DNA of 64,000 bases from Dulcicalothrix desertica PCC 7102. Its GTDB lineage: Bacteria > Cyanobacteriota > Cyanobacteriia > Cyanobacteriales > Nostocaceae. A program made the position numbers and the translations under genes. Positions 4,797-16,098 of the stretch are shown piece after piece. The DNA lies in contig NZ_RSCL01000015.1 in NCBI RefSeq assembly GCF_003991905.1, positions 188,001 through 252,000 of the forward strand. Direction: 5' to 3'. The notes under the pieces were generated by a model. That model worked only from the letters and a program-made list of their open reading frames with translations, did no database searches and was not told the origin of the DNA. The first letter of the stretch is position 1. Each line of letters opens with the position of its first letter.

Positions 4797-4890
4797 TTGG
4801 GACGGGCAAGGATGCCCATCCCACAAGACTGCATCCCACAAGATTTTATCCCACAAGATTTTTATTTTGCAAGATTTTTATCTTATGGGG
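4797..4890. repeat. Dispersed GGGCATCC/CCCACAAGATTT repeat region
   Basis: An inverted GGGC...GCCC segment is followed by four drifting copies of ATCCCACAAGATTT. Related GGGCATCCTTGCCCGCC segments occur near 13435 and 47750. It lies between the ends and starts of neighbouring reverse-strand genes and slightly enters the 3' end of the DUF928 gene. Confidence 0.6.
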
Positions 4891-5732
4891 AAGTTGGATG
4901 CATTTTGTTGTTCGATTTTGAGTTCACCGAAAATTGGTTTATTTGCTAAATATTTTAATCCGGCATAGGCTAATAGGTTTTGCCAGTCTTGCTGGAAGGT
5001 TGTATTTTGTGGTTCGGCAATACGAAGTAAAGCTAACTCGCTCAATGCTGTGTACCATATACCATTTTGAGCATATGCTGCAATTTTTGCTCGTGGTGTG
5101 GTGGCAGCTTTTAACTGTTGTTCTAATTTTACATCCGGCGCCACCCTTTTGAGTGAACCGCTAACAAAGCTGGGTATGGATGATTTTGATGTACTATTGT
5201 TTTGGCAATAAAGCTTGAAGTACCATGTGTAAGTTTTATTAATTTCTAAGGGTTTTGCTGTCTTTAATTTCAAGCTAAAAATACCAGGTTGAGTGGGTAC
5301 AGGAAACGAAGTTCGCATCACGTCGTTTTTTTCCTCATCTTGCAACGAAAATTCACCTGCTGATACTTGATTTGATTTAAAAGGTATGTAAAACCATAGA
5401 GTCGGATTTTCTTCTATTACCAACCCTGAGCGATTATTTGGTATTAAAGCTTCTAATGGCATTTCTACAGATGGACAGTCACCACGACTACCAGTCCCCC
5501 TTCTGCCACTAGGTCTACCTTGGCTTGAACCATCTGGCTCATTTGTATTAAAAAATACTTGTGTGCTACTAATGCTTTCGACTTGATTGATTTGTGCTTT
5601 TGCGGGCATAAAATATGACATAACAATCAAATTCAATAAGCTAATAATGACGGTTTTACAGCTTTTTAGACAAAAGCTTTTCAGTATTTGCTGCACAGGC
5701 ATAGTATTAACCTTATACTTTGTGTTTTGCAT
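4878..5732 (-). CDS. DUF928 family exported protein
   Basis: A 284-residue protein with an N-terminal signal-peptide-like hydrophobic segment (IISLLNLIVMSYF followed by AKAQ). A low-complexity Arg/Gly stretch (GRPSGRRGTGSRGD) precedes the conserved body, with the typical DUF928 features of a TLWFYIPF strand, a WYF...YC segment and a C-terminal helical WYTALSELALLR region. The family is cyanobacterial and of unknown function, likely periplasmic. It lies downstream of, and on the same strand as, the CHAT-CHASE2 gene. An internal ATG 30 bases in is an alternative start. Confidence 0.75.
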   Translation of the reverse strand: MQNTKYKVNTMPVQQILKSFCLKSCKTVIISLLNLIVMSYFMPAKAQINQVESISSTQVFFNTNEPDGSSQGRPSGRRGTGSRGDCPSVEMPLEALIPNNRSGLVIEENPTLWFYIPFKSNQVSAGEFSLQDEEKNDVMRTSFPVPTQPGIFSLKLKTAKPLEINKTYTWYFKLYCQNNSTSKSSIPSFVSGSLKRVAPDVKLEQQLKAATTPRAKIAAYAQNGIWYTALSELALLRIAEPQNTTFQQDWQNLLAYAGLKYLANKPIFGELKIEQQNASNFPIR

Positions 5733-5810: not shown

Positions 5811-5876
5811 AGAAACCGGGTTTCTAAGCAAAATTGTCTTTTTTATTACAATATTCAACGAAGAAACCCGGTTTCT
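5811..5876. repeat. Composite AGAAACCCGGTTTCT palindrome pair
   Basis: Two copies of the palindrome AGAAACC(C/G)GGTTTCT, at 5811-5825 and 5862-5876, are separated by a conserved spacer beginning AAGCAAAAT. The second copy lies inside the 3' end of the CHAT-CHASE2 gene. The same unit recurs at 22215 and 53292. Confidence 0.85.
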
Positions 5877-8227
5877 CGGTTTTTATAGACTTTCAAACTC
5901 GCAGTGCTTCCTAACAAAACCAACATCGATGGTACTAAGGGTATCCAAATACCTAATATAAATATGTAAAGACAAACACCATAAAGCACTCCGCAGCTAA
6001 TCACTGCCGTCAAAATTAGGCGCCGTGTTGATTGTATAGTTAAAGCTATTGCTGCTCCTACTATTGCCCAAGACCATATCCAAATATATTCGCTCCATTT
6101 TGGCAGTACATTCAATAAAGGACGATTATTCAACACTGCACTCAAAATTTGACTAATCATATGTGCTTGCACAACCACACCCGCAATTTGAGAGTGAGGC
6201 CATTTTCCTTTTGTGTAAGGTGTAGACCAACGCAGGTCATTAAAGCTGTCGGCGGTTGTACCAATGAGAATTATACGATTTTTTACTAAATCTGACGTTA
6301 ACTTGTTATTTAATACATCTTGGACAGTAAATGTTCTAATATATGGATTGGCAGCACGCCAGTTTAACATTACTTGATGCCCTTGATTATTTATATCATG
6401 ATAGCCGCCACTGTTTGATTGTAAGTTATTAAAGACTGTATTACCGATAACTAAATTTTTGTCTGGAGTTAGCTTGGAACCAATATTTTCACTCGCTAGA
6501 TAACGGGTCGCAACTCGGAAACTAAAAGATTTATCTGTTTTACATTTAGCGTTTTTAGCAGTTGGAGGCGCCATTGCTAACAGGTGACGACGTAAAATAG
6601 TGTCGGGGTCAGGGACTACATCAGTAAAACCAACACTTGTTTGTAAAGTCTCTGGTGGTGGTGGAACTCCTGGGTCTGCATTATCTTCACCTCCTTTACA
6701 AACAGCGATAAAGTTATCACTTCGCATAACTGCTGCTAGGTTTGGGAAATTAGCTTCTACGGGGTTCTCCCGATAAAGGTCTAAACCTATTACACGAGGT
6801 TTAAATTGCTGTATCTTTTCCATAACAGCAGCGAGAGTTCTGTTAGATAAAGACAACCCTCGTCTTTCTTGGGGATTTTGAGCTTGAACATCTGCTTCAG
6901 TCACCGTTATAACTATAATTCGATTATCGGGTTTTTCAGCAGGACGACTACGCATAATTTTGTCGAAAGCTGAAAGTTCCCATGACTCTATAATTCCGGT
7001 ACTGCGTGCGACTACTACTACACTACTTACTAGTAAACTAACTTGAAGTAATGCTGTAAATAAAAACTTTCTTGGTAAATTCGGTTTATGTACAAAAAAT
7101 TTGCTTCTCCAAATCAATGGTGCTGCTGCTGGGTTTTGACATATTACAGGTAACCAACTCGCACAGGGATATTCATCTTCTAATCCTTGTAACCTTGCTT
7201 GTGCTTCTCGCACCGACATATACAAAGACTTACCAGTTGCAAATGCTTCGAGAAAATTCTTTAAAAACGCTTGGGCAATAATATCTGGAACTGGTTCACG
7301 CATTACTATAACTTGCGGAATGTGTAGCGATGCTAAATCACGTGCTAGTCCAAGACCATCACACGAATTAAATATAGTTAGACTTAAACCGTTAGATAAT
7401 GCTGCTCGTAAACCGTTTTTTAGTTGCGAAATCGTTAAAGTATCTGTCTTGTTTATTTGAATTGTACCCGTTTCGCCATCCGATTGACTAGAGCTATGTC
7501 CTGCAAAAAATATTATATCCCATCCTTGCTTATCCCAGAGCCAGTAATCTAACTCTCGACGTTTGGGTTCCACTAAAAATACTGTTTGTGCATTTATAAG
7601 CTCTAAAATTGCTCGGTCTTTTTCTACGTCAATTCCTTCACTGTTTCCCAAAATTGCTAAAATCCGCATTGGACGATTTGGATTTTTTGCACTTGGTTGA
7701 AGATATTCAAATTGTGAAGTACTCAGACAAGCTACTGCATTCACGTAATCTTCAAAAAAATCCCACAAATGCCAGGGTATTTTTCGAGCTTCTTCGTCTT
7801 CTGTCTCAAATATAAATTTTATCTCATCACTCGGCGCCAGTTTTGTGCGTAACTTTTGATTGACGTGTATAAATGATAAAGATTTAAACCATAAATTAAT
7901 ATGATGCTGCAACTCTTCACATAAGCTACTGAATTCCATTAACGAAACATTTGTAACATCTTCTTCTTCAACCTCTACGTCAAAATCATTGGCATAAATG
8001 TCATAATTTCTTAACTTTCGCCAACTTCTATCGTGGTAAAGCGCTTCGTTAAGCAAACAATAAAGTAGCTGCCAACGTCTATATGACTCAGAAATTTCTG
8101 GTGCAGCAGGCAAACTACCCACCATTTGTGTTGGTGCGTTTGTATTTTCCCATAGTTGAATTGTAACAGTCGAAAAACCCTGTCTGAAATTACCCTTACC
8201 CAAATTTAATACTACTAACTTATTCAT
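5855..8227 (-). CDS. CHAT protease fused to CHASE2 sensor
   Basis: 790 residues. An N-terminal domain shared with the protein at 13459-16098 (GNFxxGFxxVT, LPAAPEI) leads to a CHAT caspase-like domain with the His-Cys dyad visible: FFAGHSSS (His244) and FNSCDGLGLA (Cys289), then VIVMREPVPD and the ASWLPVICQNPA end. A membrane segment follows (about 388-407), then a CHASE2 extracellular sensor domain (about 410-720) and C-terminal membrane helices. The protease would face the cytoplasm and the sensor the periplasm. The start overlaps the DUF1822 stop by 4 bases, so it is third in an operon with the sigma-like and DUF1822 genes. Its last residues (RETGFLR) are encoded by a dispersed palindrome. 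Ligand and substrate are unknown. Confidence 0.88.
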   Translation of the reverse strand: MNKLVVLNLGKGNFRQGFSTVTIQLWENTNAPTQMVGSLPAAPEISESYRRWQLLYCLLNEALYHDRSWRKLRNYDIYANDFDVEVEEEDVTNVSLMEFSSLCEELQHHINLWFKSLSFIHVNQKLRTKLAPSDEIKFIFETEDEEARKIPWHLWDFFEDYVNAVACLSTSQFEYLQPSAKNPNRPMRILAILGNSEGIDVEKDRAILELINAQTVFLVEPKRRELDYWLWDKQGWDIIFFAGHSSSQSDGETGTIQINKTDTLTISQLKNGLRAALSNGLSLTIFNSCDGLGLARDLASLHIPQVIVMREPVPDIIAQAFLKNFLEAFATGKSLYMSVREAQARLQGLEDEYPCASWLPVICQNPAAAPLIWRSKFFVHKPNLPRKFLFTALLQVSLLVSSVVVVARSTGIIESWELSAFDKIMRSRPAEKPDNRIIVITVTEADVQAQNPQERRGLSLSNRTLAAVMEKIQQFKPRVIGLDLYRENPVEANFPNLAAVMRSDNFIAVCKGGEDNADPGVPPPPETLQTSVGFTDVVPDPDTILRRHLLAMAPPTAKNAKCKTDKSFSFRVATRYLASENIGSKLTPDKNLVIGNTVFNNLQSNSGGYHDINNQGHQVMLNWRAANPYIRTFTVQDVLNNKLTSDLVKNRIILIGTTADSFNDLRWSTPYTKGKWPHSQIAGVVVQAHMISQILSAVLNNRPLLNVLPKWSEYIWIWSWAIVGAAIALTIQSTRRLILTAVISCGVLYGVCLYIFILGIWIPLVPSMLVLLGSTASLKVYKNRETGFLR

Positions 8228-9456
8228 GGCGACTTGCCAATGAGTGCATCAAGCATGAAATCCTCTTTTATAATGACATCTTGCAACACCAATTGAATAC
8301 TAAAAGATTTTCCTAAAGGAAACTTAAATCTTTTTAATTGAATGTAATTGTCATGGTTTCTAGAAACAACTTCTTGAACAACAGCACCTGAAGGCAATAA
8401 TAAGGAAAGTTTTATACTTGCGGGTAAGTAATATTCTCCACTTGTAGGATATAATTGCACGCGAATATTTACTTTGTCATCTATCTCAGGTGATAACCCA
8501 ATTAATAGTACAACAGCTTTATTACCTAATTGCATTCCTAAATCGATTAACTTGGCGCCTTGAGTACGATGAGGAGTCAAAGCAGTATCTTGCCTAAATT
8601 GAGCAGCTAAAGTTCTTTGCTGTAGATTTAACAAAGCATCTACATGCTGCCAGCCAGTTTCAAAAATGTCTTCTAACCATAGAGTTAAATTAGTAAATCT
8701 TGGCTGAATAGTATTACTGAGTTTACTAAGCCTAGCTTTGTATAATTCTTGTCTCTGTGTATTGGATGCAATCAAAGCACTCCACTCGTCAAAATTTCCA
8801 TATAAACGGGGGGAGTGGATATTCGACTGACTTAATATATTTAGTAATTGTGTTGCTTGTGCATTTGAGGTTGTTAATAAAGGTTTGAAGTGTAGTTGTT
8901 GTTGACAGTACTCACGTGCAACCCACATCACATTTAAGTCTTCAATAAGAGACTCTCTTTCTAGACAGTATGTCCTAGTCATTTGGTTGAACGTCGCATA
9001 CTGGGTAAGTTGTTCGTGGGTTGTATATCCCCATACTCGTAACCATGATTGTTCTAGATTTAACTGTACATGTAAATAATATTCTCCGGCCCAATCGGGA
9101 ATATTAACCCATTCTGCTGAAACTTCAAATTCCAATGGATTACTTTTATCGCTAGGTATCAATACTAATTTAGTATTGTCTACAGTAATCGCACATCCGT
9201 TGACTACTTCCCAATACGTTGCCAAATCATCCAAACTGGGAATTTTGATGACGTTACTAAATTCTGGGTCATCCTTTAACCAATTTGAAAGGGTATTTAG
9301 AGATAGATAATTTAAAAATGCTCGCCATCGTGCAGCATCATTAGAATAATGCTGTGAATAAATCTGTTTCCATGCATCTTCTTGTGCTTGGTTTGATAAC
9401 TCTAACCATAATTGGTTAGGGTAAATGGTTTGTAACTCACTAAAGTTGTAGCTCAT
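8224..9456 (-). CDS. DUF1822 family protein
   Basis: 410 residues, soluble, no signal peptide. The C-terminal third carries the conserved DUF1822 pattern: DLGMQLGNKAVVLLIGL, RVQLYP, LPASIKL, then NYIQLKRFKFPLGKSF. The protein at 12221-13387 shares the same blocks. DUF1822 has no known function but occurs in cyanobacteria between sigma-like and CHAT genes, which is exactly the order here: the sigma-like stop is 1 base upstream and the CHAT-CHASE2 start overlaps by 4. Translational coupling suggests a fixed ratio and perhaps a physical complex. Confidence 0.85.
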   Translation of the reverse strand: MSYNFSELQTIYPNQLWLELSNQAQEDAWKQIYSQHYSNDAARWRAFLNYLSLNTLSNWLKDDPEFSNVIKIPSLDDLATYWEVVNGCAITVDNTKLVLIPSDKSNPLEFEVSAEWVNIPDWAGEYYLHVQLNLEQSWLRVWGYTTHEQLTQYATFNQMTRTYCLERESLIEDLNVMWVAREYCQQQLHFKPLLTTSNAQATQLLNILSQSNIHSPRLYGNFDEWSALIASNTQRQELYKARLSKLSNTIQPRFTNLTLWLEDIFETGWQHVDALLNLQQRTLAAQFRQDTALTPHRTQGAKLIDLGMQLGNKAVVLLIGLSPEIDDKVNIRVQLYPTSGEYYLPASIKLSLLLPSGAVVQEVVSRNHDNYIQLKRFKFPLGKSFSIQLVLQDVIIKEDFMLDALIGKSP

Positions 9457-9457
9457 A

Positions 9458-10909
9458 TTATTTTGCTGTATGGTTGCACGTAGTACGATGAGTATTTCTA
9501 TTTATTAGCCAGTTATCAATAAAAATAGCTAGTTTGTTTTTGGCGCCATCTAAAGCATTGATGCCCAGTTGCGTGGTTGTTTCTAGCTCCTCTTGAAAAG
9601 CATTTATTAATTTTTGTTTAATTATATTATCATTTTCAATATTATTAAAAGATATGTTATCGGCAATCTTGATTCGAGCAACTCTATCTAGAGTATTGAA
9701 AAACTCTTGCTGAGTATATACCTGTAGACAATCGTTCATAGCGTCTTTAATCGCTTCTATATTTTTGTCATCATATACCTTAACCTCTCTTAAGTTCTTC
9801 TGCCACTGGGAAATTAGGCTATCTAATAAAGTTTTTGTATATTTTCCTAAATGGCGGGCAACTTGATACTGTTTTTGTATTTCTGTATATTTATTAGTAA
9901 TGGCGCCTGCGATTTCAGTTTGAGTCAAACCTAAACCATGCCAAAGCTTAAGCATTAGTTGCCCTTGTTCAGGTAACGTCAAAAATAATTTTTTAATCAA
10001 AGATTGTGTTTCTTGCCATTCTTCGTGTTGAATTAAATTTTCTAAAAGACTTGAATTACAATCAGTAACATTGATTTGCTCATCAAGAGGCGAAAACTTT
10101 TTGGTACGATAATTGCGTGCAGCTTGAATACAAGTTAAAAGAAGATTTTGAACTTGTGCAACAGATTGGGTAGTTAAATTAAATTCTTCGCATCGCTGAT
10201 TATAATAAGATGTAATTTGCCCAATTTGCAAAATTTCTTCAGAACCAAGCTTGCGATTAGCTGGGTTATACAGATAAATTTCATCAAAACATTGCCAAGC
10301 TAAATAATAATAATTTATATTATTCTGATTAATACCTCTTGCCAATAAAGCTTCTTTAAGCTCCTTAGCCGTCAAATCTTTAAGCAAACCATAATCAGTA
10401 AACTTATCTCTTTTTGCCTCAATATCTTGTGCATAAATCAAATTACCAGTAAAACGTAAAATAGCTGTTTTTGCATAAGCATTCAAATTAGCTTGAGGAT
10501 GCTCAACATCAAATGTTTTGAATAATTTTTCTGGTGGGTTAACAGCCAAATTAGCTATTTGAAACAACTCCGAGAGTGGATACTTGTGGCGAATAAAACT
10601 AAACCGTTGGAAACTTTTATGTGCCGCCCACAAACAAGCTTCTTGCAAATAAGATGATAAATGCCCCCTGGCTTTAACAAAACAATCCGAAGACGAAGAC
10701 ACCTGCTGCACAGCTTGATTTACCTTAATAATTTTAAGAAAATAGTGTGCCCAGTATTCTGCTTTAACCTCCGATTCACTTTGTATCAATCTTTTCATAT
10801 GGCGTTCTAACTGTAAATCAGTCTGCCATACTATATTTAGGCGTTTATTAACCCCCTCGAACATCAAAAACGTCGAGAATTTTTGTATAGTGTCGTCACG
10901 TTTCTTCAC
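9458..10909 (-). CDS. Sigma-70-like regulator, large cyanobacterial type
   Basis: About 483 residues. The N-terminal part (ARGHLSSYLQEACLWAA, then a helical core with FDVEHPQANLNAYAKTAI) resembles sigma region 2 of the large, divergent sigma-like proteins found with CHAT/DUF1822 genes. A region 4-like helix-turn-helix is seen near residues 315-350 (LPEQGQLMLKLWHGLGLTQ). A frame-open ATG lies at 10930, but the GTG at 10909 has a GGAGG seven bases upstream and is preferred. First gene of a tightly packed reverse-strand operon. Whether it binds RNA polymerase or acts as an adaptor is not known. Confidence 0.7.
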   Translation of the reverse strand: MKKRDDTIQKFSTFLMFEGVNKRLNIVWQTDLQLERHMKRLIQSESEVKAEYWAHYFLKIIKVNQAVQQVSSSSDCFVKARGHLSSYLQEACLWAAHKSFQRFSFIRHKYPLSELFQIANLAVNPPEKLFKTFDVEHPQANLNAYAKTAILRFTGNLIYAQDIEAKRDKFTDYGLLKDLTAKELKEALLARGINQNNINYYYLAWQCFDEIYLYNPANRKLGSEEILQIGQITSYYNQRCEEFNLTTQSVAQVQNLLLTCIQAARNYRTKKFSPLDEQINVTDCNSSLLENLIQHEEWQETQSLIKKLFLTLPEQGQLMLKLWHGLGLTQTEIAGAITNKYTEIQKQYQVARHLGKYTKTLLDSLISQWQKNLREVKVYDDKNIEAIKDAMNDCLQVYTQQEFFNTLDRVARIKIADNISFNNIENDNIIKQKLINAFQEELETTTQLGINALDGAKNKLAIFIDNWLINRNTHRTTCNHTAK

Positions 10910-11036
10910 ATTTAAACCTCCATGCACCATTCTCTATAATACCCGTGTGTTGAACACCAATTCTGCCCTCAACCTACTTATGGGCGCCATAATTAATAGA
11001 ATATGCAGCTTTCTCAAAATTTGCGTAAAAACTGGC

Positions 11037-11161
11037 AACGGATGTAACGGATGTAACGGATGTAACGGATGTAATGGATGCAACGGATGTAGCGGATGTA
11101 ACGGGTGTAGCGGATGTAGCGGATGTAATTATAAATTATCCGTTACATCCGTTATAATCCG
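11037..11161. repeat. Nonamer tandem array (GGATGTAAC) with inverted copies
   Basis: About ten direct copies of a 9-base unit close to GGATGTAAC run from 11037 to 11128. Two or three inverted copies (ATCCGTTACATCCGTT) follow at 11138-11161, so a long hairpin is possible. The same nonamer occurs at 20607, 20806 and 32857. A frame through the array would read Asn-Gly-Cys repeats and is not a credible protein. Confidence 0.85.
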
Positions 11162-11268
11162 CTGCTAATAATCTGTTGCCAACTTTGAGCAAACTTTTCG
11201 GCTTCAGAATGCTGAGGGAACAAATTTTTGACTAGCTTAAAGTTTTGTAAAGCTTGGATATACCTTCT
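11152..11268 (-). pseudogene. Possible 3' remnant of a helical (TPR-like) gene
   Basis: A 38-codon frame bounded by stops reads like the end of a TPR-type helical protein (ALQNFKLVKNLFPQHSEAEK, then FAQSWQQII). It has no plausible start, and its stop sits inside the nonamer array. It lies between the divergent starts of the two sigma-like genes, so it may be debris of an earlier gene. The call is weak. Confidence 0.25.
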
Positions 11269-11433
11269 TTATTGGTAATAACTGTTTTGTCAAAGAATTC
11301 ATAAATTTTTAACTTTTGTAAAGAATTTCAATTTTGCATAAAACCCCCTAGCTTGTGCAGAGAAGTAATGGTGGGTAAAGCCTTTGGGTGGCGCCTGCGT
11401 ATATTAAGTACAAACACTGATATATAGCCATAG

Positions 11434-12183
11434 ATGATGACTATGATGACCTTTGATGAAACCCAGACTCCATCCAACGAGACTCCTTCTCAGTTACAAC
11501 AGTTAGCGATACAAGCTCAAAATACTCTTGCAGGAAGTCCACAAAGACATCGTGCATTAACTCTGTTAATTCAAGAACTGTGGAAACAGCCAACGTTTGG
11601 GATTTTGAGAAAAAGTCTTAAAACAAAATATGGCAATTTATCGAATGGTCTTTTTGATGACTTATTCAATGATGCGCTTCAGGAAACGTTTATTGCAATT
11701 AGCCAATATATTGACAGATATGACCCCAAGCACCCATTGCTGCCATTGATTTGTACAATTATTCGCAATAAATATAGCAATCTTTACAAAAAGCATTGCA
11801 AATACGGCGTTACACGTATTCCTAAGCTCACAGGAAATCATAATTCAAAACAAGGTCAGGTAATATCTTTAGATGGATTAGATGAGTTTGTGCAAGATAA
11901 TATCATGAGCAAACACTTCTCAAATTCTTCCGGTAAGTCAATATCTAACTGTGATGTATTAAGGGAGTTATTAATTGATGACCCAGACAATAAGTTCAAA
12001 GTATCCGTTAGAGATAAGCCTGATATCACTTTTCAGTATATAGCCATATACTTATACGTCAAAGGAAGAAACATGCAACAGCTAGCTTCGGAACTAGACA
12101 TTTCTTACCAGACTCTAAATAGCTTTTTTAAAAGGAACTTAGAGAAACTAGAGCCATATTTCCGAGAAAAACTACAGTCTTAA
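11434..12183 (+). CDS. Sigma-70 family-like regulator, short form
   Basis: 249 residues. A region 2-like stretch is visible (ETFIAISQYIDRYDPKHP, followed by an IRNKYSNLYKKH helix), then a linker and a region 4-like helix-turn-helix near the C-terminus (LASELDISYQTLNSFFKRNL). This is smaller than the sigma-like protein at 9458-10909 and closer to ECF size. Several ATGs are clustered at 11434-11446 and no strong ribosome site distinguishes them. The DUF1822 gene follows after 37 bases on the same strand. It is transcribed away from the other sigma-like operon. Confidence 0.7.
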   Translation: MMTMMTFDETQTPSNETPSQLQQLAIQAQNTLAGSPQRHRALTLLIQELWKQPTFGILRKSLKTKYGNLSNGLFDDLFNDALQETFIAISQYIDRYDPKHPLLPLICTIIRNKYSNLYKKHCKYGVTRIPKLTGNHNSKQGQVISLDGLDEFVQDNIMSKHFSNSSGKSISNCDVLRELLIDDPDNKFKVSVRDKPDITFQYIAIYLYVKGRNMQQLASELDISYQTLNSFFKRNLEKLEPYFREKLQS

Positions 12184-12220
12184 ATTATACATATTAGGTA
12201 ATAACTATTAAGGAGCAATG

Positions 12221-13387
12221 ATGAATAATACAAATACTGTTGACGCTTTAACTTTTACAGTACCGCTTTCTTTTGAAGCGCACTCTCTAGCTCAAATATA
12301 TAGCAAACAGCAAAATCGTGCAGATAGAGCGAAACAAGTGTACTTAAATACTTTAGCGATATACGCAGTTGAGCATTATTTTAAATGTATAGGTTTTGCA
12401 ACTAACTGGGAAGGTAGTGATAGTCGCAACCCAATAGTACAAAAGTTTTTAGATATTGCCGATTTAAACGTTAGAAGTATGGGCAAATTTGAATGTCGTC
12501 CAGTATTACCAGGCGCCGACACATTAGAAGTACCATGTTCAGCATGGGATGAACGCGTTGGTTATGTTGCAGTACAATTGACTCAATCTTTAAAACAAGC
12601 AACACTAATAGGTTTTGTACCGCAAATAGCAGACAACGAAGGAAGCATACCATTAAATCAACTGCGCGCGTTTGATGAATTTCCAGAATACTTAAATCAA
12701 CTAAAAACTAGAAGCAAAACACTAACATCATCCACATCACCACAAATTGTAAATTTAGAAGAATGGCTAAATAATATTATTGAAACTAGCTGGCAAACAG
12801 TAGAAGAATTTTTTAGTACTCAAACATATAACATGGCTTTTAGACATCGTGGTATTATTTCAGAACAGATAAACCCTAACGATACTAGCAGTCTCAAACA
12901 ATTTATTAGCACTTTATACGCAAATCAGCGCGGCAACACAACACAAAAAACTTACCCTGCTCACTTAGAACCATTATCAGCATTAACTCAACTTATCAAG
13001 TCAACTCAAGACGACGAAACTCGCTGGAAAGCAGTTGAACTTTTATGGAAAATAAACCCTAAACATCCATCTGCCGCAATTAGACAAATTACAGATTTAG
13101 GAATGCGCTTGGCAGGATATTCAGTTGCCCTCATGGTCGCTATATTACCAAAACTTGACGGTAAAAGAGGCATTCTCTTACGAGTTTACCCAATGGATAA
13201 TCAAGCGTTTCTACCCCAAAACCTCAAATTAGCCGGTTTCGATGAAAACGGTAAAACACTACTCGAAGTTCAAGCACGCAGCCAAGACAATTACATTCAA
13301 TTTAGATTCAACGCCGACCCAAAAGACAAATTTAGTGTCCAAGTATCCCTAGGTGAAGCCAGCATCACAGAACATTTCAGCGCCTAA
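12221..13387 (+). CDS. DUF1822 family protein, second copy
   Basis: 388 residues from the ATG at 12221, chosen over the ATG at 12218 because AGGAG at 12211-12215 sits at better spacing. The C-terminal DUF1822 blocks are clear: DLGMRLAGYSVALMVAIL, LRVYP, LPQNLKLAG, NYIQFRF. It shares them with the 8224-9456 protein but differs strongly in the N-terminal half. It sits directly after a short sigma-like gene and converges on the CHAT-PBP gene, repeating the composition of the neighbouring locus with a different arrangement. Confidence 0.85.
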   Translation: MNNTNTVDALTFTVPLSFEAHSLAQIYSKQQNRADRAKQVYLNTLAIYAVEHYFKCIGFATNWEGSDSRNPIVQKFLDIADLNVRSMGKFECRPVLPGADTLEVPCSAWDERVGYVAVQLTQSLKQATLIGFVPQIADNEGSIPLNQLRAFDEFPEYLNQLKTRSKTLTSSTSPQIVNLEEWLNNIIETSWQTVEEFFSTQTYNMAFRHRGIISEQINPNDTSSLKQFISTLYANQRGNTTQKTYPAHLEPLSALTQLIKSTQDDETRWKAVELLWKINPKHPSAAIRQITDLGMRLAGYSVALMVAILPKLDGKRGILLRVYPMDNQAFLPQNLKLAGFDENGKTLLEVQARSQDNYIQFRFNADPKDKFSVQVSLGEASITEHFSA

Positions 13388-13434
13388 CATGCTCTAACAA
13401 ATCTTGCAATACATTCTGTAACACATCTTGTGGA

Positions 13435-13452
13435 GCGGGCATCCTTGCCCGC
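13435..13452. terminator. Hairpin between convergent genes
   Basis: GCGGGC and GCCCGC flank a six-base loop in the 71-base gap between two convergent genes. No clear T-run follows on either side, and the sequence belongs to the dispersed GGGCATCCTTGCCCGCC family. It could serve as a bidirectional terminator. Confidence 0.35.
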
Positions 13453-13458
13453 CCCAAC

Positions 13459-16098
13459 CTAAAGTTTTTCTTCAATGAAGTTACATAAAGAGCTTTGGCA
13501 TTGCACTTTTACTAGTACTCCTACACGGTTGCCACTGCTAACTGGTTTTCTACTGCCTTTTTCTTGTTGAGTGTCAAATTGAATTTTTGCTACGGCGCCT
13601 TCTGCTGTAAAATTATCTAGGTTGTTGAGTATATTGTTTCTGAGTAGTTGACGAGTGGGTTTTTCTGTAATTGTGCTTAAACCTTGACTAATTACTTGTA
13701 CTGCATCGTAGGAAGTAACCGTAACCCAGTTAATTTTTGCACCACCCCAAAGTTTATCAGATTCTTTCTCGAATTCAGATAAATTGGCAGGTGATTCACT
13801 TCTTTGCCAAGGTACTGCTGTTATTAACTTAGTTTGTTCTGCTCTGGAGCCAAAAGTTTGGTTTAGTGTGGCTGGACTATATAATGTACTGGCGCCTAAT
13901 AATATTAAGTTATTATTTGGGGTGTTAGAAACTTCTTTAAGTACTTCTAACCCTTTATTTAAAACTTCTTCTATACCAGAAGGAGCTAATAATAGTACAT
14001 TAGCATTACTTTTGATAGCTCCATTAATAATTTGTTTGGTGCTATCTGTTTTTAAGTCGTATATAGGTATATTTTGTTGATTCGCAATTTTGAGAAATTT
14101 GTCTTTTATTGATTCGCTATAAGATTCTCCTCTATCATATGCTATTACTGGTTTGATTGATTTTGATGGAATTTTTGTGAGTATATACTCATATAAATTT
14201 GTGACTGCAACAGTATCACTTGTAACTGTGCGAAGAACCGGATATGATGAATTACTTAATTCGGTAGATGTACTTGTAGGGGAAATAACAACAATATTAT
14301 TCATGTATCCTAAATTTACAGCAGCTTTTGTTAGTTCACTTCTGTAATGCCCAATAACTGCAATAATATCTTTCTGGTTATTATTATTTGCTATTTTACT
14401 TGCGACTTGTGTTGTTGTTGAATGGTCGTTGCCGTCGTCTACTATTTCTACTTGTAACTGTCTGTTATTAATGCTGTTTGTACATGTTGGATTTTGATCG
14501 TTTTGGATAGATTGTACAATTTTATCTATGCTACCACAGTTAATTTTACTTTGAGCATGAGCAATACCACGTAGCATTTCTTCCGCAACGTTTGGGTTTT
14601 TAGTGATGGGAACACTTACTGCAATGTGCAGGTTATCTTGTTTTGTGTTTGCTGCAATAGCGTTATTTAAGTAAATTAAACTTTCAGGGTCGTTGGGAGT
14701 TTGCTTTAATGACTTTCTAAATGCACTAATAGCTGAGTTCCATTCTTTTTTTTGAAAAGCATTTGTTCCTTCTTGTTTGTTTGCGTTTCTTTTTAGTAAT
14801 ATTTTCTCTCCTTTACTAAAAAGGTTATCAAGACTTTGACTCGAAATCTGTGGTACTGATGTTTGACTAAGTGCTGGAACAGGTGGTGTTGATGATGTAA
14901 TTATTTGTTTGATTATGATAGCTGCTAAGGCGCCTGCTAATACTAAGCTTATAAGTGTTACAACTTTGTGTGAATGCCAAAGTCTACTTACACCACGTTT
15001 AATTTTAATATGGATAGGTTGGCGCCAGTATAATGACCTTTCGGCAGGGTTTTGACAAATTACAGGTAGCCAAGATGCATAAGGGTATACATTTTCTATG
15101 TCTTCTAATTTTTCCTGAGCTTGTCGTACCGAATAGTGAAACTTTTCTCCTTGCGAAAATAAACGCAAAAATTCTTGTAAAAACTCCTTTGCAACTTCAT
15201 CTGGTACTGGTTCACGCATGACTATTACCTGCGGAATACCAAGTTCAGTAAGTTTGTTCGCTAACCCTAACCCGTCACACGAGTTAAAAATGGCTAGTTT
15301 TAAACCGTTCTCTTTCGCTTTGATGAAAGCATTTCTTAAATCTTTTAATGCTGGACTATCTATATTATTAAGCTGAATGACTCCATCGTTGCCAGTACTC
15401 GAAGTGCTGCTATGTCCAGCAAAGCATAAAATATCCCATGAACCAGTACGTAATTTCTCACATAGTTCTTTTCTACTCGGTTGTTTTAGCTGTTCTACCT
15501 TTGAACTAGGTAAATTTCTGAGTATTTTTCCATCTGTACCAATATCAATTCCGTCATCATTACCTAAAACTGCTAAAATTTTAACTGGTGTTTGCAGTGG
15601 TTTCGATGCTGGATTATATTTGGCGCCTAACGATAACCAAGCTCTTTTACGATTTTGAAACAATTTCCATAAATGCCAAGGAAGCTTTTTTAAAACTTCA
15701 TCGCTTGTCTGAAAAATAATCCGTGCTGACTCATTTCTAGCTACTTCTTCTTCGACATATACACGTAGCTGTCCCATTGATGGATGCTCAAACCATTGTA
15801 TCAATCTATCTTCGAGCGCTTTACCTGCTACTCGACATTGGTCTAAAGTCGATACGTTGGTTGTTTGGTCTGGGTCTACGTCAAAACCTCTCACAGAACT
15901 AATAACTCGTCGTACCGCATCTAAATTATTATAATTTCGCTGAAATTCATTATACAGCCGAGGAATATCCGGCGCCGCTGGAAAATGCCCGACTTCTTCT
16001 TTATAAACACCCCCACTCTCTTCTCTGATTCGCAGGGTAACTGGAAAACCTTCCTCAAAATTACCACTGGCGATGGTAAATATAACTACCTTGCTCAT
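13459..16098 (-). CDS. CHAT protease fused to periplasmic-binding sensor
   Basis: 879 residues. The N-terminal half matches the CHAT-CHASE2 protein: GNFEEGF, FPAAPDI, CHAT His229 in CFAGHSSTS and Cys274 in FNSCDGLGLA, then ASWLPVICQNPA. A single membrane helix lies at about 378-397, then a TPR-like segment (about 437-490). The C-terminal part is a type 1 periplasmic-binding fold (about 495-870; VAVSVPITKNPNVAEEMLRG, VIGHYRSELTKAA) like branched-chain amino-acid or amide binding proteins. By topology, ligand binding outside would control a cytoplasmic caspase-like protease. It converges with a sigma-like/DUF1822 pair. The ligand and the protease target are not known. Confidence 0.88.
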   Translation of the reverse strand: MSKVVIFTIASGNFEEGFPVTLRIREESGGVYKEEVGHFPAAPDIPRLYNEFQRNYNNLDAVRRVISSVRGFDVDPDQTTNVSTLDQCRVAGKALEDRLIQWFEHPSMGQLRVYVEEEVARNESARIIFQTSDEVLKKLPWHLWKLFQNRKRAWLSLGAKYNPASKPLQTPVKILAVLGNDDGIDIGTDGKILRNLPSSKVEQLKQPSRKELCEKLRTGSWDILCFAGHSSTSSTGNDGVIQLNNIDSPALKDLRNAFIKAKENGLKLAIFNSCDGLGLANKLTELGIPQVIVMREPVPDEVAKEFLQEFLRLFSQGEKFHYSVRQAQEKLEDIENVYPYASWLPVICQNPAERSLYWRQPIHIKIKRGVSRLWHSHKVVTLISLVLAGALAAIIIKQIITSSTPPVPALSQTSVPQISSQSLDNLFSKGEKILLKRNANKQEGTNAFQKKEWNSAISAFRKSLKQTPNDPESLIYLNNAIAANTKQDNLHIAVSVPITKNPNVAEEMLRGIAHAQSKINCGSIDKIVQSIQNDQNPTCTNSINNRQLQVEIVDDGNDHSTTTQVASKIANNNNQKDIIAVIGHYRSELTKAAVNLGYMNNIVVISPTSTSTELSNSSYPVLRTVTSDTVAVTNLYEYILTKIPSKSIKPVIAYDRGESYSESIKDKFLKIANQQNIPIYDLKTDSTKQIINGAIKSNANVLLLAPSGIEEVLNKGLEVLKEVSNTPNNNLILLGASTLYSPATLNQTFGSRAEQTKLITAVPWQRSESPANLSEFEKESDKLWGGAKINWVTVTSYDAVQVISQGLSTITEKPTRQLLRNNILNNLDNFTAEGAVAKIQFDTQQEKGSRKPVSSGNRVGVLVKVQCQSSLCNFIEEKL

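Follow-up and report, generated by a model that had tools for sequence, protein, structure and literature searches.

What are two adjoining gene sets of the cyanobacterium Dulcicalothrix desertica PCC 7102 for, each of which combines a sigma-like protein, a DUF1822 protein and a CHAT caspase-like protease joined to a sensor? Both lie in the window analyzed here, a stretch of 64,000 nucleotides (positions 188,001 to 252,000 of contig NZ_RSCL01000015.1), and the neighborhood that they represent is real, conserved and already published; to this we add a specific mechanism that can be tested and, for DUF1822, a probable function. We propose, with a probability of roughly 0.57, that each locus is an insulated channel in which DUF1822 acts as an anti-sigma factor that CHAT would cut, freeing the sigma factor. 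New in this analysis are DUF1822 as a probable anti-sigma family, a two-sided co-variation seen in two sigma classes, a link to DUF928 and the upstream element TGCATA-N17-CCCATA.

The two sets adjoin divergently in the list of open reading frames (ORFs), and these ORFs and their Pfam matches bear out the three-part composition that the first-pass annotation had assigned to each. Set A, on the minus strand, runs from a class A sigma-70-like gene (9458-10930, 490 residues as called) through DUF1822 (8224-9456, 410 residues; PF08852, E = 1.6e-79), the proposed anti-sigma factor and protease substrate, to an EACC2-CHAT protease with a CHASE2 sensor (5855-8227, 790 residues). A single nucleotide separates the sigma stop from the DUF1822 start, and the DUF1822 and CHAT genes overlap by 4 nucleotides (ATGA), so that the coupling claimed for these genes in this order stands. 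The likely start of sigma A is a GTG at 10909, preceded by GGAGG and matching the ATG of aligned relatives. Two parts of set A are absent from the earlier annotation: a DUF928 gene (4878-5732, minus strand, 284 residues; PF06051, E = 2.2e-58) that lies 122 bp behind the CHAT-CHASE2 gene and that we propose as a fourth member of the module, and a promoter-like element at 10979-11007 (minus strand). Set B comprises a class B sigma-70-like gene (11434-12183, plus strand, 249 residues), DUF1822 (12218-13387, plus strand, 389 residues; PF08852, E = 1.8e-80) and, convergent to this pair, an EACC2-CHAT protease with a periplasmic-binding-type sensor (13459-16098, minus strand, 879 residues).

A random association of the three families, one of two outcomes named beforehand as refuting a common pathway, finds no support. 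We annotated 201 regions with profiles built in this analysis: the window and 20 further regions of the same genome, 80 with CHAT as their anchor (the best 80 among 550 relatives, a choice that favors kin of the CHAT in the window) and 100 with DUF1822 as their anchor, hand-picked from the strong end of a listing that scored up to about five candidates per genome. With a gap of less than 500 bp and on the same strand, a sigma-like gene adjoins 178 of 199 DUF1822 ORFs of at least 150 residues, as against 1 of 670 control ORFs, all of them farther than 4 kb from the nearest DUF1822 (because DUF1822-adjoining genes served as seeds of the sigma profiles, the control omits other sigma types); an EACC2-CHAT gene lies within the same distance of 131/199 and 24/670, respectively. 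With the general model TIGR02937, 7 of the best 24 of 46 matches in the window's own genome (11.4 Mb in 109 contigs) are found within 2 kb of DUF1822, where 0.31 would be expected. This genome has 25 DUF1822 matches, two of them seemingly pieces of one broken gene (in the region labeled L042), 28 strong EACC2-CHATs among the 31 matches listed, and 20 DUF928 matches, 19 over the cut-off; DUF1822 lies within 5 kb of 19 of the 28 CHATs (0.73 expected). At that distance DUF1822 accompanies 71 and sigma 69 of the 86 CHAT ORFs in the CHAT-anchored regions, and sigma accompanies 95 and CHAT 60 of the 103 DUF1822 ORFs in the DUF1822-anchored regions.

Gene order is likewise fixed. Sigma is upstream of DUF1822 on the same strand in 182 of 201 cases, with a median gap of 16.5 bp (17 have no sigma within 3 kb, and in 2 it is on the other strand), and DUF1822 is upstream of CHAT in 140 of 169 (19 have none within 5 kb, 9 are opposite and 1 is downstream). 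The three-gene association is not chance, and from the counts of adjacency and order we take the sigma-DUF1822 pair to be a tight core and CHAT a looser third part. No natural fusion of sigma with DUF1822 or of DUF1822 with CHAT was present among 7,581 ORFs. Of 386 genomes drawn from across the phylum, 240 have a DUF1822 match, which in 227 exceeds the family cut-off, and many of the 240 are small genomes outside the window's class that have a weak single match; among plasmids, a relative is found in 28 of 72,556 records, one of them a 2.3 kb Thermosynechococcus plasmid.

Judged by description, the two loci are the module of Kaur et al. (2021; PMC8195603), who reported in silico neighborhoods of EACC2-caspases with an extracytoplasmic function (ECF) sigma factor and DUF1822; as in the window, a constant N-terminal domain and a caspase are followed by a variable C-terminus that may be CHASE2. 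The earlier remark that no function has been described for such a module therefore holds for experiments and not for in silico work, since the same paper proposes activation by autopeptidase action with sigma as output. In the accessible part of that paper DUF1822 is presented as a tetratricopeptide repeat (TPR) protein with no role of its own, and DUF928, finger-bearing relatives, an upstream element and co-variation are not found there. A TPR protein is not what we see: neither window DUF1822 has a Pfam TPR match at E ≤ 1, and the predicted fold is built from an alpha/beta domain, helices and an immunoglobulin (Ig)-like domain. As far as the texts could be seen, an anti-sigma role for DUF1822 was not found in the PMC literature searched, where three papers mention the DUF1822 or DUF928 families and which contains few subscription papers and no bioRxiv preprints, and within the same limits no paper brings together CHAT, CHASE2 and a sigma factor.

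How, then, is DUF1822 connected to its two neighbors? The AlphaFold2 (AF2) model of the first-locus protein, made from a 58-row alignment (mean predicted local distance difference test score [pLDDT] 87, predicted template modeling score [pTM] 0.67), has an N-terminal alpha/beta domain (residues ∼16-170), helices (∼174-290) and an Ig-like C-domain (∼298-401), and most of the matches that Foldseek ranks highest are Ig-like domains or beta domains similar to them. Identity between the two window proteins rises from 15% in the N-terminal part through 23% in the middle part to 31.5% at the C-terminus, in agreement with the C-terminal blocks that the first-pass annotation had seen as shared. We compared pairwise distances by partial rank correlation, correcting for the third partner each time. 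In 70 triples with a class A sigma and CHASE2, the N-domain, middle and C-domain of DUF1822 correlate with sigma at 0.64, 0.53 and -0.12 and with the N-terminal part of CHAT at 0.14, 0.27 and 0.69, respectively; in all 78 class A triples the corresponding values are 0.60, 0.45 and -0.16 for sigma and 0.25, 0.35 and 0.74 for CHAT. A separate set of 39 class B triples gives 0.53, 0.13 and 0.11 for sigma and 0.39, 0.15 and 0.53 for CHAT. In subsamples of 70%, the N-domain correlates more strongly with sigma than the C-domain does in 200 of 200 draws for each class, and with CHAT the C-domain is the stronger of the two in 200/200 (class A) and 196/200 (class B). Sigma and CHAT, given DUF1822, correlate at only 0.15 in class A (a value reached by 1 of 200 permutations) and at -0.12 in class B. 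On a plain reading, the N-domain of DUF1822, in class A together with the middle, would face sigma and the C-domain would face the protease. The nearest DUF1822 relative of less than 60% identity shares the sigma class in 169 of 173 cases, as compared with 93 on average and at most 113 in 200 shuffles.

Distant relatives of DUF1822 (12 matches from 11 genomes, with nine wider regions from eight of these genomes) provide the second line of evidence. Their N-domain is homologous to that of canonical DUF1822 (hhalign probability 97.9%, E = 3e-13, 146 columns), and in 7 of the 12 it is followed by an HxxxCxxC finger; of the ten that were scanned, two exceed the Pfam zf-HC2 cut-off of 22.2 bits (28.8 and 25.5 bits), three fall below it and five are unlisted. 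The zf-HC2 finger is typical of anti-sigma factors. In five of the nine regions the relative adjoins a sigma gene of 195-296 residues, with no EACC2-CHAT in the stretch, and four of these five sigma genes exceed the TIGR02937 cut-off; of the remaining four regions, one is truncated by a contig end, one has no adjacent sigma and two come from genome G016, one of them with a very weak sigma match (0.0032). Three further finger-bearing relatives (L256, L258 and L259) have their wider regions outside the nine that were read. Together with the adjacency to sigma, these observations suggest that DUF1822 is probably an anti-sigma family. Beside five of the distant pairs (L269, L271, L273, L274 and L275) stands a protein of 988-1240 residues with N-terminal, zinc-ribbon-like CxxC motifs, a possible third partner at the place where CHAT would be.

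Several of our results nevertheless weigh against an anti-sigma DUF1822 that CHAT cuts. There is no anti-sigma factor among the top 50 PDB fold matches of the DUF1822 model. The HxxxCxxC motif is found in 0 of 201 canonical DUF1822 proteins, and the profile alignment between canonical proteins and distant relatives ends before the finger; for both reasons we treat the finger as something that relatives do elsewhere, and given its absence from all 201 we do not file canonical DUF1822 as a zinc anti-sigma (zf-HC2) protein. In two of the ten relatives scanned (L260 and L263), hmmscan misses DUF1822, though the genome search had matched both. Only two of the five sigma-adjoining relatives bear the finger (L255/L269, which passes the zf-HC2 cut-off, and L260/L271, which has the motif only), and the four finger-bearers with a wider region comprise two with a clear sigma neighbor, one with a very weak one (L264) and one with none detected (L266). 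CHAT and DUF1822 also occur apart: DUF1822 is missing from the 5 kb around 9 of the 28 CHATs of the own genome, and EACC2-CHAT from the 5 kb around 51 of the 199 DUF1822 ORFs, some of which may be close to the end of a contig or locus. In class B the N-domain co-varies with CHAT as well, and the middle with neither partner. Finally, the DUF1822 gene lies between those of sigma and CHAT, and linkage or recombination could cause part of the co-variation. Linkage alone fits poorly, because the raw correlation within one gene (DUF1822 middle to C-domain, 0.39) is lower than that between neighboring genes (C-domain to EACC2, 0.72); triples in which CHAT is elsewhere than directly behind DUF1822 (15 of 129) are too few to serve as a linkage control.

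Adjacency, co-variation and translational coupling would suit any obligate partner, and a canonical DUF1822 that lacks the finger could also be a chaperone or co-activator of sigma rather than its inhibitor. We regard such a positive partner as improbable, given that some DUF1822 relatives carry zf-HC2, and continue with DUF1822 as a probable inhibitor.

The two classes of sigma-like protein in the window differ in how well their assignment is supported. Both window proteins match TIGR02937 below its cut-off (E = 5.6e-8 for sigma A and 1e-6 for sigma B). A paralog of sigma A (L028) exceeds it, with 107 bits over residues 73-351, and the class A profile aligns to solved sigma factors, in region 4 to SigF/FliA (3e-7 to 1e-4) and in region 2 weakly (0.028), so that sigma-70 regions 2 and 4 are recognizable in class A by way of this paralog and the profile, the window protein itself being below cut-off. 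An AF2 model of the class A protein (mean pLDDT 81, pTM 0.45) gave RNA polymerase or sigma entries as 28 of its top 50 fold matches; as the best E value is 0.09, we count this as weak support. The class B protein matches Sigma70_r2 at 8.5e-4, below the cut-off, and its profile aligns to solved sigma-H over residues 61-204 at 0.0013; its assignment as a sigma factor is less well supported than that of class A. Matches to NF041236, the sigma factor of type III-E CRISPR (clustered regularly interspaced short palindromic repeats) systems, are far below that model's cut-off (5.3e-4 for class B). In the window's own genome three kinds of sigma-like gene precede DUF1822: class A (mostly 392-519 residues, one of 213), class B (209-256 residues) and class C (466-500 residues), the last of which has no library match over cut-off but, when profiles are compared, is homologous to class A (96.7%, E = 3e-10). 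Between the profiles of classes A and B no alignment was obtained.

At the other end of the pathway, both proteases match Pfam CHAT (5.9e-14 in the first locus, 3.5e-15 in the second). The dyads His244/Cys289 and His229/Cys274 and the closing motif ASWLPVICQNPA (at 356 and 341) are exactly where the first-pass annotation had placed them, and His and Cys are kept in 163 of 165 CHAT ORFs. Twenty own-genome CHATs align over their first 370 residues, with His244 and Cys289 invariant; this constant N-terminal domain followed by a caspase we equate with the published EACC2 by its description, not by the authors' profile. The C-terminus, by comparison, is variable: CHASE2 is found in 125 of 169 CHAT ORFs (4.8e-60 in the first-locus protein), and nSTAND1, WD40 and periplasmic-binding domains are found in others, the second-locus protein matching Peripla_BP_6 (5.2e-13) and ANF_receptor (3.8e-13) and, below cut-off, a TPR stretch (0.047). 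DUF928 goes with the sensor type: it is located within 1.5 kb on the same strand for 83 of the 125 CHASE2-type CHATs and for none of the 39 others (Fisher 2e-15), in all 83 cases downstream of CHAT (median gap 48 bp). Among the 42 CHASE2-type CHATs without it, 10 come closer than 1.2 kb to a locus end, and the other 32 leave space for the gene. From the look of its N-terminus, DUF928 appears to be secreted. A CHASE2-DUF928 cluster has been noted in one Nostoc (PMC5587647).

The domain repertoire bears on whether the module could be an anti-invader or suicide system, with the caspase as effector and sigma merely setting expression. Kaur et al. (PMC8195603) place it, within their EACC1/EACC2 framing, among systems of apoptosis and immunity, and nSTAND1 and WD40 are present in 13 and 12, respectively, of 38 non-CHASE2 CHAT C-termini. 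PADLOC, however, returns no match at E ≤ 1 for the six module proteins, and a single scan of viral contigs gave no EACC2-CHAT relative, which leads us to set aside a defense system proper. Signaling accords better with a single genome that has 25 DUF1822 matches and 28 strong ones to CHAT, and with the prevalence of CHASE2; we consider a suicide or anti-invader role quite unlikely.

A different alternative retains DUF1822 as the inhibitor of sigma and leaves it uncut: CHAT would cut itself or another protein, and sigma would be let go through a conformational change or by general proteases. Autopeptidase activation, the published proposal (PMC8195603), speaks for this alternative and against cleavage of DUF1822, and so do the sigma-DUF1822 pairs without EACC2-CHAT, both in the distant regions and among the 51 ORFs mentioned above. 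Against it stand the co-variation of the DUF1822 C-domain with the N-terminal part of CHAT (0.53-0.74) and the over-representation of another caspase where EACC2-CHAT is missing, a C14 caspase being found within 5 kb of 13 of the 51 DUF1822 loci without EACC2-CHAT and 2 of the 148 with it. On balance we think it unlikely that DUF1822 stays uncut, and we retain DUF1822 as the likely substrate of CHAT. One locus (L042, 7437-8409) has a seemingly split DUF1822 gene with a class B sigma upstream, a C14-type caspase downstream and then, by eye, a second caspase-like gene. Six others (L139, L176, L177, L179, L185 and L186) encode TPR-CHAT proteins on the same strand within ∼320 bp of DUF1822, with a Csx29-like domain make-up (Pfam TPR and CHAT in L139, L176 and L185). 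Such exported-looking TPR-CHAT proteins were rejected as substitutes for EACC2-CHAT, since they are commoner within 5 kb of DUF1822 at loci that have EACC2-CHAT (49/148) than where it is lacking (8/51), and for this reason we argue for C14 substitution only. Another gene behind DUF1822, of one oxidoreductase-like family as judged by the gene start, occurs in 8 of the 31 DUF1822 loci that lack CHAT and have a close downstream gene (L155, L156, L158, L162, L169, L171, L188 and L198).

What would a freed sigma factor read? An alignment of the regions before sigma A and 14 relatives contains TGCATA-N17-CCCATA, located in the window at 10979-11007 (minus strand), 48 bp from the called ATG and 69 bp from the likely GTG. 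With up to one mismatch this is the sole copy in the window, and because shuffled sequence yields at least one copy in 23 of 100 trials, it is unremarkable within the window alone. The whole genome has five exact copies, as against none for a backwards-read control, and two of the five precede sigma A and its closest own-genome paralog. Among 120 class A sigma genes, 7 are preceded by an exact copy and 14 by one with up to one mismatch (13 of the 14 with a spacing of 17), whereas in 4,000 random stretches of equal length the counts are 3 and 12, respectively; at up to one mismatch the numbers are 1/40 for class B and 0/13 for class C. Most class A sigma genes lack the element, which belongs to one class A subgroup. 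A slightly stricter form gave 25 matches in 11 of 60 family genomes, as against 4 for the control. Inspection of 26 sites placed 8 of them before a class A sigma gene, at 15-608 bp when counted from the site's first base to the called ORF start; five of these eight are source sites or the same sequences, and three are new (L292, L298 and L300). The remaining 18 stand before genes of another kind or before no gene. A DUF1822-CHAT operon follows the element directly in L080 and L215. A non-palindromic pair of hexamers at fixed spacing suggests a sigma promoter, here a candidate for autoregulation through sigma A. No element could be read before the second sigma gene, for which only two sequences, from two near-identical loci, were at hand.

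The other exact own-genome copies lie, measured from the site's first base, 36 bp before a gene for an NHL-repeat protein (L281), 317 bp before one for a peptidoglycan-binding protein (L278) and 511 bp before a reading frame that is AraC-like by eye (L280); these genes may be regulon members or chance matches. Between the divergent sigma genes, at 11037-11128, are ∼10 tandem copies of a 9-base unit (AACGGATGT), an array absent at the same place in the sister locus L075 according to the upstream-region alignment.

The steps that we infer from these data run from the sensor to the promoter. A signal at the sensor end, received by CHASE2 with the help of DUF928 in the first locus and by the periplasmic-binding-type domain in the second, would turn the caspase on. 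Before the signal, the DUF1822 N-domain (in class A with the helical middle) would keep the adjacent sigma inactive, and the Ig-like C-domain would be docked on EACC2-CHAT; the active protease would then cleave DUF1822 and release sigma, by analogy with Csx29/Csx30/CASP-sigma, and in the first locus the freed sigma would transcribe its own operon from TGCATA-N17-CCCATA. The findings agree with the first-pass idea of a modular pathway in which a sensor and a protease act ahead of DUF1822 and sigma; that idea had left DUF1822 open as target or output, and here DUF1822 becomes the probable inhibitor.

The closest parallel is found in type III-E CRISPR systems. Their CHAT protease Csx29 cuts the inhibitor Csx30, whose target CASP-sigma has binding motifs within its own locus (PMC10028731). 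A CHAT protease, a sigma inhibitor and an ECF-like sigma factor are common to both, and cleavage there is thought to relieve inhibition; the trigger there is RNA, acting through Cas7-11, and here would be a membrane sensor. The module may thus work like the CASP system by analogy. A likeness between Csx30 and DUF1822 is seen neither by sequence nor by fold, and a homology of the two gained no support, as Csx30 does not appear in PDB sequence matches to E = 10 or in the top 50 folds, its presence in these collections being unconfirmed. Cas7-11 has no Pfam match in the six module proteins, no CRISPR search having been made. RseA/DegS and zf-HC2 anti-sigma factors are alike in that the anti-sigma gene adjoins sigma and a signal-activated protease frees the latter, and unlike in that here the protease bears the sensor and canonical DUF1822 lacks HxxxCxxC. 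In systems of the RseA/DegS type, the anti-sigma factor is usually a membrane protein. A further cyanobacterial CHAT caspase-like protein, HetF of Anabaena, acts in cell division and heterocyst formation and loses its function when the active site of the putative protease is mutated (PMC8406250); no sigma or DUF1822 partner is named in the accessible part of that report, and the second-locus CHAT matches NF045509 at 7.6e-9, far below its cut-off.

Beyond the two loci, a wider picture can be drawn, to which, taken as a whole, we give somewhat less than even odds. It holds that cyanobacteria have a general form of transmembrane signaling carried by a caspase and not a kinase, with many paralogous, insulated channels per genome, in each of which a sensor-caspase works with a dedicated, two-faced DUF1822 anti-sigma substrate and a dedicated sigma that is autoregulated; that the sigma-DUF1822 pair is older than its link to the caspase; and that the CRISPR Csx29/Csx30/CASP-sigma set is built on the same logic, either in parallel or by capture. 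DUF1822, a domain of unknown function found across the phylum, is offered a specific, testable role, and a catalogued caspase neighborhood becomes a pathway from sensor to promoter, for which a substrate and binding faces are proposed and a candidate promoter is named. Insulated paralogous pairs of this kind would be a source of orthogonal, protease-controlled sigma switches. If the wider picture is true, the CRISPR-linked set of caspase, anti-sigma and sigma would cease to be an oddity, and caspase-clan proteolysis would be a routine currency of cyanobacterial signaling.

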